A DNA stretch of 64,000 nt from Halocafeteria seosinensis. Lineage: Eukaryota > Sar > Bigyra > Bicosoecida. Location: positions 1-64,000 of the forward strand of contig LVLI01000006.1 of assembly GCA_001687465.1 (NCBI GenBank), written 5' to 3'. The translations under genes and the position numbers were made by a program. The number at the start of each line of letters is the position of its first letter. Position 1 is the stretch's first letter. This document shows positions 6,716 through 25,121 of this stretch, piece by piece. The notes beneath the pieces were generated by a model that was given only the letters and a program-made list of their open reading frames with translations, searched no databases and was not told where the DNA came from.

Positions 6716-9700
6716 TTATTCAAACAAGTGCACTCTGATAGCAGGATTACGCATGTTGTAGAAACTACGCATTTCATATCCATATGCGCCACCGTTCGTG
6801 AGCATGATCGTGTCTCCTCTTGAAGTGTTGGGCAATCGTCGATCAATCCCGAGAACATCTCCACTTTCGCATATAGGACCCACAACAGTTGCAGTTTGTG
6901 CAGGACCCTCGTGAGGCTTAGATAAGTTTACGATGGAATGATAAGCCCCATATAGTGAGGGACTGCAGGGTGTCGCAAGCATGTGCACATGTTCATATGC
7001 AAAACCGGAACAAATGCGGTACTCACCGAATAAGGGTGTTCATACCAGCTGTCACACCAATGAACAGCCTGTTTCCTTTCATTCGACACTGAGTGGCTCT
7101 ACACAGCAACACGCCAGCATTGGCTACAAAGAATCTTCCTGGTTCCATCCACAGCTGTGGTAGAAAGACGAAGGCGGAACTGCTACGGGCTTTTACAAGT
7201 ACATAGTCAACTAATCATACCTCAATTCCCAGTTCCGCGGCGCGATTGGAGCAAGGTTGTAGCTCTCTTTGTAAGCTGGACAAATCTAGGCTCTCAGACT
7301 TTATGCGCACTTCCGCATTGCTAGTCTTGCTACTCAGGCAGTCCACCAGTTCCTCGTGATTAAGATCGTCAGGGATTCCGATCCCACCACCCAGGTCCAA
7401 CCAGGCCAGAGAAGCCAAGTATCCCTTAGTCTTCAGCGACTTAATCAATTCCATCACCCTCCAGAAGACACGACTCCAAATACATGCGTCGGTTATTCCG
7501 CTACCAGAATGGGAATGGATGCCTGTGTTTCATCGTCAAAGGTACATCCCGGGCTCTGGGTCTGAAACTGATTTGTCTTACCTGTAATTTTAGCTCCCAT
7601 GCCATGTGCAATCTTACAAAATTTTTCGACATCTTCGAACTCGCATCCGAATTTTTGACCGGGACCTGCCGTGACGACTTTGGCATGGTGTCCGGCCCCT
7701 ACCTGCGAGTCAACTCGGAGAGCGATCTCAGCGCCTTCGACCGCACTCTTTTCAATTTGCGCTAATACATCCGGACTATCCAAGACTATCACCAGATTCG
7801 GTGCCCCGTATCTCCACAACTCCTTCTGCAACCTCAACATCTCCTCTAACTCTTCTATTCTACAAAAGTTAGGAACATATAAGATATTTATGGATTTGGA
7901 CACGCTCCTTCGTTCTAGCTCCTCAAACTGTTGCAAGCACAAGTACACCTCAGAGGCAGAAACACATTCCAGATTAATTCCTGACATCATTAAATAGCGT
8001 ATCACAACAGGGCTTGAATTAGCTTTTATGGCATAAAACCATTTGGAAACAGCTTTAACTGAGGAAGTAAGAGTTTCAGCCCTTTCCACCACTGTAGGTA
8101 TATGAAGCGCATAGACAGGGTGCTCGGAATCGTCTGCTAGCTGTGTTAGTTGGTGTATCTTGTCCATCGTGCACCACCAGCTCAAGGAAGAAGGCCGGGA
8201 ATCCCTAGTTGGGGAAGGAGTGAGATATGAATAATGTCGACCAGACGACACCAACTGTGCTCCAGCTTGCCATCCTGACGAAACAATTGCGGAAACTTGT
8301 TTTTCGATTTGCACTCGAGGCAAAGCGGTCTCAAGCCACATATGCAAGACTTGCGAACCGCATCCAAGCTCCCGAGAGGAGGTTCTGGAGCTCTTTCCTG
8401 TATCTTTGATATACGATTCTACCGCATTCTTAGCGTCGCCTAAACTGGAACAGACTATTTCAACTTCGTAGAAATGGTTAGAACTGCAGGTGCATCCTGT
8501 GAAGGCGCTGGCTTCTTTCATTATCTGTCTCCCGACAGCGAAGTCCTCAAACCAAAGAAGGAGCTCGCCGCCACTTACAAATTCCATTCCTCCTTTTATG
8601 GACTTTTCTGATGTTTCTTTAAATGCGTTACAGCAGATGCTCACTACATGCTGCCATGTGTTGGAATCTAAAGGGAGAGTGAGACGAACTCCTAACAGTT
8701 CGCAGGATACCCAACCAGCAAGTATCTCCCCGGTCTTGGGATTGCGTTGGGACCGAAGGGAAGTAACCGTTGTGCCATAGACATTCCCCATGTCGTAGAT
8801 ATTGCGAAATTCCACAACGGAACCAATTCTACCTAATCCCAGCCATTCTGTTTGCTGCAAGACAACCTCCTGAAACGTTGAGAGCTCCGCTGCCTCCTCA
8901 TGGCTTATTCTTGTAAGCAGTGAGGCGTCCGAATTTATTGCGCGATTTAAGGAGTAAAATCTGTACTCTCTCAAAGCGCATGTGGTACCGTTTACATGCC
9001 ATAGGCACTTGTCAATACACCAGCAGCTTACCCTGAAGTGGAGGACCACAGTTCCAGCGTCCGTTCCCGATGCTTGCACAAGGCATACGCCGACTGTCTA
9101 GCGTGCCGAGGCACACCAACGATGAGCAATTTGCCATGTTCCTTTTCGTCTACGCATTTGTCAATCTCTGTGGCGTCATCGAGGAGCACCATGTCGCACC
9201 GGTTCGCACCGTGTCTTTTGTGAACCAAGGAAGCGAGCTCCTCCAGTTGACCTCTCGACGGAAGCGTTCCCGAGGACGAGTTGGCAAGTTCCGAACCTTC
9301 TTGCAGATGGTTGTACTCACACACAACAAGAAGTTCTCTTCTTGTTTCTTCCTCGATCCGTTTAAGCAGACCATCCTTGATTTTTTCAAATGCCGACGGC
9401 CAATCCACGGCTTTACTGTCGATATAAATGACAATTTCGGTGCTTTCACGAGGTTGTTCCATATCTCTCGTTTCAAAATTTGATCGTGCACGTAAGCGTA
9501 GTACTTTGCCGTTGAAAACTAAACAAGAGACGTCGCTGCATTCAAACAACACTGCGTCGACACATTCGGGAAGTCGACTTTGTGAAGTCACGATGTACTC
9601 CTCCCGAGTCTCCCGGCCAAACGTCCGGAACCGGATCCTACCGTTAATTCATCCCCGTCCCATGTTGGACTAGGGTAATATATTCATACATTAAACGATT

Positions 9701-9883
9701 GATGTAGGTGCTGAATGCTTCATTGTTTGACAGAAAACGAAGAGAAGCTGGGCCACTGGTCAAAGTTTGTTGATGTAGTTTTGTGGCCGTTTTTGTTGTG
9801 CAGCAAACCAAAGTACTGAGGCATGTCTCTAATGCTATGTAGAAGGATTTACTTCGGGTATTAACTCCGTCTTCAACAGTCAT
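6716..9883 (-). CDS. lysA: Fused aspartokinase-like/diaminopimelate decarboxylase
   Basis: Six exons (9883-9690, 9637-9032, 8960-7582, 7522-7221, 7154-7027, 6962-6716) give 951 residues. The C-terminal half, from about residue 520, is a DAP decarboxylase (fold III PLP enzyme, last step of lysine synthesis): FYAIKANS with the PLP lysine, HSHSGSG, DLGGGIGIP, MEPGRF, CESGD and GAYGYEM are all present. The N-terminal half follows an aspartokinase from the middle of the catalytic domain through ELWSSTSG and LLTRISHEEAAEL to a regulatory-like region. It lacks the N-terminal KFGGTS motif, and the position of GRGGSDTSA reads GVPRHARQSA, so kinase activity looks lost. The same domain order occurs in the single-chain enzymes of Xanthomonas and Xylella. 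The start ATG at 9883 lies five bases from the divergent ATG at 9889. Confidence 0.85.
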
Positions 9884-9888
9884 AGAGA

Positions 9889-10707
9889 ATGGAACGGAGG
9901 CTACCACCACTTGAGAAGTCGAAGGAAGAGGAAGCTTTCGATCAGCAAGGCAATGGCGGTGGGCAGTCAGAGAACGTGGAACATCCAGGTGGAAATAAGA
10001 CAATGTACTCGGCAGAGGAGAGATATAACCAAGCCAAAAACAGGCTTCTAAAACTGCTCAGCACTCAGACTGAAGACGATGCCGAGGTAGATACCAAAGA
10101 ACATGCCATGCCTCTTGAGGAAACCAATGTAAAACTAACGTCAGAAGATAGAACCGTCAGTTCGTCGTCTTCGCTTCTGCAAAAGAATCCCTCTGCGTTG
10201 CACCGACCATTAAGTGAAGACAATCGGTCTCGCAAGCTGCCTCCAATACACGAAGCGGAATCTACCGCTAATTCAAGGGGCAGCAGAAATCACCGTCAAG
10301 ATCGTGCCAAGAGTACTGGGTTCTCCGAACGAGAGTTTTGCATCCAGGCTTTCGATGGATTATCCTTTGGAATAAGCCGCAGAGATAAGAAAAGTGTAAA
10401 AAGTAAACGAATATCATCTAAGTCCTCGAAGATATGTGGAGAGAAAAAACCAGATTTCGACTTGCGCCTCGGCCCAGCGTGGAACAGCGAACTCAGGGAT
10501 ATTAAGGAGCAAGCACAACGGAAAGGTGACATGCTGAGGCGAAGCACTCAACATCCGCGTAAAAAAAGTACGAAGCAAGCAACGAATGTGATATTGCACC
10601 CACTTGTGGCATCTGGTGCCCACGGCAACTCCAAGCGGATGAGCACGAAGGCAAGTCAATCACTGAGGAAGAAAGGAACTAACGTGCTACGGGCAAGTGT
10701 AGATTGA
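9889..10707 (+). CDS. Unidentified basic, low-complexity protein
   Basis: A single 272-codon frame. The protein is very polar, with Lys/Arg/Ser-rich stretches (RRDKKSVKSKRISSKSSK at about 165-182) and an acidic N-terminal third; residues about 39-60 (MYSAEERYNQAKNRLLKLL) may be helical. No domain is recognised; a nuclear or cytoskeleton-associated disordered protein would fit, without direct evidence. The ATG at 9889 is used here, but the in-frame ATG at 10003 is a good alternative and would leave 119 bp between the two divergent genes instead of five. The TGA ends three bases before the stop of the convergent methyltransferase-TPR gene. Confidence 0.55.
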   Translation: MERRLPPLEKSKEEEAFDQQGNGGGQSENVEHPGGNKTMYSAEERYNQAKNRLLKLLSTQTEDDAEVDTKEHAMPLEETNVKLTSEDRTVSSSSSLLQKNPSALHRPLSEDNRSRKLPPIHEAESTANSRGSRNHRQDRAKSTGFSEREFCIQAFDGLSFGISRRDKKSVKSKRISSKSSKICGEKKPDFDLRLGPAWNSELRDIKEQAQRKGDMLRRSTQHPRKKSTKQATNVILHPLVASGAHGNSKRMSTKASQSLRKKGTNVLRASVD

Positions 10708-24021: not shown

Positions 24022-24392
24022 TCAGACAATTTGAGTTCCCTCTAGTCTGGACCCAGATGCTGAAATATACATGTAATGCTGGCTTATTCCGATAACTAGT
24101 TCGTACTCGACGTTCCTTATTTTCTTGAGTCCGATTCGACGTGTCTGACTCGATGTTGTCAAGTCTGCCAATTCTCCGCCGTGAAGTCGAGACTTGTACA
24201 AGTTGTACTAAATTGCCTACTGCGAAAGGCACCGTTTGCATTGTTTCTTCTTACAACACACGTTACACTGTCAATTTGTAGTAGCGCACCAGATACAGCG
24301 TGATATGGGGTGACATTTGACCCAACATAACTCTGACCCTCTAGGTTCATGGGAGTGCAGCTGCTGCTAAGATTGTGATAGGCATTGAGAAT
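24022..24392. other. Spacer between J-protein and racemase
   Basis: About 370 bp in same-direction spacing. No recognisable exon. The frame of the racemase is open upstream of its ATG to a TAG near 24342 but contains no earlier ATG. Confidence 0.3.
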
Positions 24393-25121
24393 ATGCGTAT
24401 CCTTGGACTGTTGGGAGGTATGAGCTGGGAGAGCACCAGCCATTATTACCGACGGATCAACCAGCTTGTTCGGGAGCGCATGGGAGGGCTCCACTCAGCG
24501 GAACTGATACTGTGGTCTGTGGACTTCGCCGAAATCGAAAGGCTTCAAGGCTCTGGCCAGTGGACGGCCGCCGGAGAACGCCTTGCCGAATGTGGCAAGA
24601 GACTTGCTTCTTCCGGGGCCGAAGCCCTGATCCTTTGTACGAATACTATGCACATTGTAGCAGACGCGTTGGAGTCTGCGGCGAGGATACCACTCATTCA
24701 TATAGCTGACCCTACTGGCGAAGCTGTGAACGCAGCTGGCTGTAGTCGGCCTTTACTATTAGCCACTCGATACACAATGGAGGGACAGTTTTATACTAGT
24801 CGTCTGCGAGAACGCTTTGGATTAACTATTCATGTTCCACAAGCTGAAGACTGTAAGGAAATCCACCGTGTCATCTTTGAAGAATTGTGCCTAGGAATTG
24901 TGAGAGCTGACTCGAGGACCACATTTCTGAGGATTGTTGCCCGTGCTCACGAAGAGTTTAGCGTGGATGCAGTAATACTGGGTTGCACAGAAGTGAGCAT
25001 GCTGCTGAATGAGAATAATATAAGCTTGCCTCTGTTTGACACAACTGAGCTCCATGCCAAAGCGGCGATAGATTTTGCATTGTCGGGGTCCGGGAGTCAC
25101 GCACTAAAATCTGATGCATGA
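24393..25121 (+). CDS. Aspartate/glutamate (hydantoin) racemase family protein, bacterial type
   Basis: Intronless frame of 242 residues from the first ATG (MRILGLLGGMSWEST). The fold is a duplicated half-barrel with two catalytic cysteines: the first in LILCTNTMH (about residue 80), the second in VILGCTEVSML (about 195). Both are present, so the enzyme should racemise an acidic or other amino acid without PLP, like bacterial YgeA. The sequence looks complete and prokaryote-like over its whole length. Lack of introns among intron-bearing neighbours fits, but does not prove, acquisition from bacteria. No transit peptide is evident, so it would act in the cytosol. Substrate is not predictable from sequence. 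Confidence 0.87.
   Translation: MRILGLLGGMSWESTSHYYRRINQLVRERMGGLHSAELILWSVDFAEIERLQGSGQWTAAGERLAECGKRLASSGAEALILCTNTMHIVADALESAARIPLIHIADPTGEAVNAAGCSRPLLLATRYTMEGQFYTSRLRERFGLTIHVPQAEDCKEIHRVIFEELCLGIVRADSRTTFLRIVARAHEEFSVDAVILGCTEVSMLLNENNISLPLFDTTELHAKAAIDFALSGSGSHALKSDA

Follow-up and report, generated by a model that had tools for sequence, protein, structure and literature searches.

What becomes of a fused enzyme, one combining the kinase of a pathway's first step with the decarboxylase of its last, once the kinase half has seemingly lost its active site? This question is raised by a spliced gene found on the minus strand, at positions 9462 to 6716 and possibly from 9883, of a 64,000-nucleotide stretch of Halocafeteria seosinensis DNA, i.e., the window. 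The product of this gene is an aspartokinase (AK) followed by a diaminopimelate decarboxylase (DapDC), which is the order seen in the bacterial bifunctional enzyme. That the window is ordinary nuclear contig is indicated by Pfam matches of its other open reading frames (ORFs), as 20 of these were scanned (29 long ones being listed) and 12 have a match, e.g., to condensin, NOB1, CWC25, or malic enzyme. An intronless-looking ORF at 24345–25118 on the plus strand encodes an aspartate/glutamate racemase of bacterial type (PF01177, E 6.4e-40; NF007569, E 1.2e-78).

The six-exon model, 9883 to 6716 on the minus strand, is phase-consistent, as had been originally predicted, and encodes 951 residues. 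Its five introns, of 52, 71, 59, 66, and 64 nt, are all GT-AG. What is uncertain is exon 1 itself (9690–9883), which joins in phase, for which no homology was found, and which is dispensable if translation begins instead at the ATG at 9462. That alternative, shorter model consists of 828 residues, and its start is the one preferred here. The ATG at 9462 precedes by 8 residues what is likely to be the first strand of the kinase, EIVIYID. Seven other gene pieces served to train a small codon model, under which the frame used is the best of six for every exon piece; scores nevertheless are near zero for exon 1 (-0.03), for the stretch before 9462 (-0.06), and for the stretch replacing the ACT domains (0.016), versus 0.08 to 0.09 for the remainder. 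The ATG at 9883, in addition, adjoins a divergent plus-strand ORF running from 9886, the first ATG of which is at 9889. With so few bases between them, these starts are unlikely both to be right.

Exon 2 (9032–9637) provides the N-terminal part of the kinase half, including the likely start and, near its 3' end, GVPRHARQSA. It is separated by intron 2 (8961–9031; GTAAGC...TACAG) from exon 3, which is a single open frame of 459 codons that runs from AK-like sequence into the DapDC barrel. The first part of exon 3 (8180–8960) thus contains the end of the AK block (LLTRISHEEAAELSTF) along with the stretch found in place of two ACT domains, while the second part (7582–8179; matching NF006515 and PF02784) is the DapDC N-terminal barrel, with its PLP-lysine motif, YAIKAN. 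The open frame of exon 3, together with the bacterial domain order, bears out the AK-then-DapDC fusion that had been proposed. It is this same continuity and order that make it very improbable that the AK-like piece and the DapDC belong to different proteins, whether as two genes or through a mis-joined model, even given that exon 1 is doubtful and that the joins are predicted from genomic sequence.

Within the DapDC half (exons 3 to 6), PF02784 and PF00278 both are above cut-off. Taken piece by piece, positions 8179–7583 match NF006515, the bifunctional AK/DapDC family, at E 8e-32 versus lysA at 1.4e-19, and PF02784 at E 2e-17. Exon 4 (7221–7522), bearing HSHSGSG and GGG, matches PF02784 (E 2.6e-6). 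Exon 5 (7027–7154), bearing MEPGR, when taken alone matches PF00278 below cut-off (E 0.045), and exon 6 (6716–6962), i.e., the C-terminal sheet domain with CESGD, GAYGYEMRSFYN, and the stop codon, matches PF00278 at E 1.2e-13. As a whole this half is nearer NF006515 than lysA among NCBIfam profiles: E 2e-106 for the former, with 356.9 bits not reaching the curated cut-off of 802 bits, and E 2.1e-77 for the latter, with 260.4 bits not reaching the equivalog cut-off of 297.9 bits, a cut-off that goes unmatched as well in 4 of the 16 bacterial genomes that possess the fusion. Against a profile built here from bacterial fused DapDCs, the score is 375 bits, and solved DapDC structures also are matched, the best being 2p3e (E 1.9e-43).

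The decarboxylase motifs that originally were pointed to, that is, the PLP lysine (YAIKAN), HSGSG (as HSHSGSG), GGG, EPGR, and CESGD, are indeed all present, with roles that presumably are those of fold-III PLP enzymes. Of 79 columns in which at least 98% of the 51 bacterial sequences agree, 72 are retained, and the seven that are altered all fall outside of those motifs. The DapDC half is, from its sequence, genuine and intact-looking, and is predicted to decarboxylate meso-diaminopimelate (meso-DAP).

For the kinase half, the exon-bearing frames yielded no Pfam match to AA_kinase or ACT with E<=1. A bacterial kinase-domain profile, however, yields 22.2 bits, while none of 1000 shuffles exceeds 5.9, and when this half alone is compared with NCBIfam, then the weak matches obtained are, in 7 of 7 cases, to aspartate kinase models (best E 9.4e-4). 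The significant AK signal is confined to about 75 residues (GKLLIVGVPR...VVLQQTE), going from GKLLIVGVPRHARQSA via LELWSSTSGFYSLNR to LLTRISHEEAAELSTF, with a local score of 72.6 versus at most 41.5 in 80 shuffles. This block spans the intron 2 join, where LELWSSTSG/FYSLNR stands against EIWTDVPG/MFTANPR.

The AK catalytic motifs are KFGG, GRGGSD, and TD. As had been noted previously, KFGGTS is absent here, its K being Y or V depending on the register, and the GRGGSDTSA site reads GVPRHARQSA; EIWTDV, in turn, is ELWSST, i.e., SS in place of TD. Only 12 of 59 AK invariants are retained, in an alignment which is weak outside of the approximately 75-residue block; these counts use 51 non-redundant rows from 150, with 11 of 43 loci having been dropped because their longest frame is without a KFGG-type motif. 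Catalysis by this kinase half, going by such replacements, is most unlikely.

Outside of the block, two registers were weighed for the N-lobe, VSCLVFNGKV against VVLKFGGTSV and EIVIYIDSKAV against IVLKFGGTSV, neither of which is significant (z 1.3 versus 120 shuffles, with 29 of 120 segments taken from other proteins of the window scoring as high). The stretch replacing the ACT domains shows a z of 0.6 versus 120 shuffles, with 41 of 120 such segments scoring as high. Profile comparison did not show ACT homology either, as the real half had no reported ACT match while one shuffle reached 8.6 bits. The claim that the kinase half aligns in order with aspartokinase consequently can be retained for about 75 residues but not for the N-lobe or ACT regions, which behave like shuffles. 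What the remainder does display is length. About 400 in-frame residues precede the DapDC, and the distance between the AK block and the DapDC linker is 260 residues, versus 245–255 in 40 bacterial slices. From this order and length I infer aspartokinase descent across the whole of the kinase half. AlphaFold2 models of positions 9636–9034, which are of low confidence (mean pLDDT 56.3), have strands alternating with helices, and those of the first part of exon 3 (mean pLDDT 47.6) contain an ACT-like beta-alpha-beta-beta-alpha-beta order at piece residues 91–168. These models are not independent evidence, however, because bacterial rows are included in their alignment.

Such erosion might suggest that the kinase half is a functionless passenger, one whose frame stays open solely because a stop or frameshift in it would ruin the DapDC found downstream. 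The paucity of AK invariants, the undetectable N-lobe and ACT similarity, and an ACT-stretch codon score lower than that of the DapDC (0.016 versus 0.08–0.09) all are what a passenger would be expected to display. A useless domain of 400 residues nevertheless should be easily shortened, yet length following the AK block has been kept and the frame still is the best of six throughout, and this reading is viewed here as unlikely. No relatives of the exon 3 kinase part were found at E<=1 among 2945 candidates, and selection on the kinase half therefore is not measurable.

Where did the fusion come from? A search that scored 7995 candidates of suitable length yielded 257 fused proteins, with the best 120 carrying kinase and decarboxylase Pfam domains; names among those 120, where telling of the organism, are all bacterial, and the best match (P0001) is 31% identical over 87%. 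As only candidates of suitable length were scored, an exon-split eukaryotic relative could be missed. Phylogeny of the decarboxylase half, an analysis that the original prediction had envisaged, employed 26 of the 51 bacterial rows in each of two trees. The DapDC half is placed, with support of 98/93, inside a group comprising 20 of the 26 bacterial fused DapDCs, and one standalone LysA and a second DapDC of this same genome fall outside of all bacterial fused DapDCs (97/99). Constraining the DapDC half to join those two outsiders is worse by 5.56 log units and is not rejected (AU p 0.066). In the first tree, which included three very divergent decarboxylases, the fork was weaker (90/79); two of those three, which have long branches, fell within the fused group, and all three were left out of the second tree. 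Tree position plus identical domain order favor acquisition of an already fused gene, with kinase decay coming afterwards. That is, the gene probably arrived fused and its kinase probably decayed later.

The rest of the genome was searched in six frames and exon by exon, at a threshold of E<=0.001, in a 30.6 Mb assembly of 605 contigs, which may not be complete. A separate aspartokinase that looks intact, as the original prediction had raised, does turn up: an AK with KFGGSS and GRGGSD on contig C33, one that scores higher with the model for lysine-sensitive aspartokinase 3 (181 bits) than with that for AK-DapDC (74 bits). An AK search gave 1316 matches, and among the 120 matches listed the best is 90% identical and one is named Sexangularia. 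Homoserine dehydrogenase is found on C112 (E 9.6e-48), and the second DapDC is on C252 (L003, C252:69545-72829), with HAMTGSN and CENND motifs, one modelled intron, and one N in the assembly. Two further loci, L005 and L006 (on C93 and C330), resemble ornithine decarboxylases by eye, their C-terminal domain being interrupted by a long insertion. One of the genome's two AA_kinase matches (L001, C150:220867-224397) is an isopentenyl phosphate kinase (NF040647, E 9.9e-37).

A search of the kind that recovers AK, DapDC, and homoserine dehydrogenase in this genome gives no match at E<=0.001 there for dapA (TIGR00674) or for the DHDPS family (PF00701), each of which is positive in 14 of 14 control genomes. 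Nor was there a match at that threshold for DapB_C (PF05173), positive in 11 of 14 controls and without a match in 3, or for DAP epimerase, i.e., DapF (PF01678), positive in 9 and without a match in 5. Models of DAP aminotransferase find only sub-cut-off matches (best E 4.9e-14 and 1.3e-6), typical of general aminotransferases, and as they match all 14 controls they decide nothing. With dapA, the DHDPS family, DapB_C, and DAP epimerase all not found, the genome seemingly has no pathway of de novo DAP synthesis that could be regulated. Alpha-aminoadipate reductase (Lys2; TIGR03443) was without a match in this genome as well, with 12 of 14 controls matching and none doing so over its cut-off; its absence may reflect either gene content or the limits of exon-wise searching.

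These absences bear on the suggestion that what remains of the kinase is a true pseudokinase, one selected to regulate, in that it binds lysine or another metabolite, or pairs with the intact AK, and thereby tunes the DapDC or the AK. The approximately 400 in-frame residues and the near-bacterial spacing of AK block and DapDC linker (260 versus 245–255 residues) would fit with such a role, as might the ACT-like order of elements in the low-confidence model. The N-lobe and ACT stretch are unrecognizable by sequence, however, the DAP-making branch that would be regulated was not found in this genome, and the 2945 candidates included no relative, at E<=1, with which selection might be tested. A selected role of this sort thus seems improbable. 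The more specific original suggestion, of a ligand sensor regulating lysine synthesis, is not supported: the DAP branch was not found and the region in which ACT domains would bind lysine is not recognizable by sequence.

How does this gene compare with what is already known? With the bacterial bifunctional AK/DapDC (NF006515, PRK08961) it shares the AK-then-DapDC order and a WW-containing linker. It differs in possessing introns, in a family score of 357 bits versus a cut-off of 802, in having lost the KFGGTS, GRGGSD, and EIWTDV motifs, and in having no recognizable ACT motifs, all of which the aligned bacterial proteins keep. Among eukaryotes, a gene of the AK-DapDC kind appears to be already known, as the choanoflagellate Salpingoeca rosetta is described, in the available portion of the source, as possessing lysAC, named for diaminopimelate decarboxylase plus aspartate kinase, and asd and dapF are reported beside it (PMC7971027). 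The likeness is one of name and description, with neither a single polypeptide nor a dead kinase stated outright in that portion (PMC7971027). In Phytophthora, an oomycete, the AK and one DapDC candidate are said in the accessible text to cluster with bacterial bifunctional enzymes, though unlike here these have separate gene identifiers, and no counterpart was found here of the dihydrodipicolinate synthase, or of the reductase-aminotransferase fusion, described for that genus (PMC2705460).

Another comparison is with the DAP-pathway genes of Monosiga, which are described as acquired in a further source that cites Sun and Huang (2011) (PMC4046809). Trypanosomatids resemble the present organism in that the host genome encodes the final enzyme of the DAP pathway but not the earlier ones, and differ in that no aspartokinase half is described for that enzyme in the text at hand (PMC3846528). 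As outlined there, symbiont-harboring species carry only the last gene in the host, with the endosymbiont supplying the other steps; in regular species DAP could replace lysine, and one such species has dapF as well (PMC3846528). As far as titles and opening abstracts reveal, the literature searched with the terms used here describes no DapDC to which a dead AK is fused.

Modestly favored here, then, is that the encoded enzyme salvages DAP by turning it into lysine, with bacterial cell walls perhaps supplying the DAP, and that it keeps an AK relic as scaffold or linker. A microbial eukaryote would have acquired a bacterial AK-DapDC bifunctional gene, which then would have gained introns, in a host seemingly without DAP synthesis, as dapA, DapB, and DapF were not found. 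The separate AK could supply threonine and methionine via homoserine dehydrogenase, the genes for both being present, and with AK so supplied in trans the fused AK would be redundant, allowing loss of its active site. The DapDC half would remain under selection by converting ready-made DAP to lysine. As DAP seemingly is not made by the host, a DapDC would make sense only with external DAP, the obvious and most plausible source of which would be meso-DAP from the peptidoglycan of ingested bacteria. Persistence of the AK relic would follow from its position ahead of the DapDC in one polypeptide, where it probably aids decarboxylase folding or assembly, and retention of the kinase half as scaffold is possible. 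A point against salvage is that there are two DapDC genes with no explained division of labor.

A bolder version would make of the dead kinase a domain now dedicated to allostery or assembly, such that a feedback-regulated biosynthetic enzyme has turned into a regulated, DAP-scavenging decarboxylase in a bacteria-eating protist that lost, or never had, DAP synthesis. This is doubtful. Under the favored reading, i.e., of salvage with a scaffolding relic, what is seen is apparent pathway loss that has left a visible trace, with the kinase of the first step decaying inside a fusion whose decarboxylase, that of the last step, survives, apparently by using a cell-wall amino acid which prey alone could supply. 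If true, then this would represent a testable case of eukaryotic lysine salvage and, as well, of the fate of a regulatory domain once its pathway is gone.
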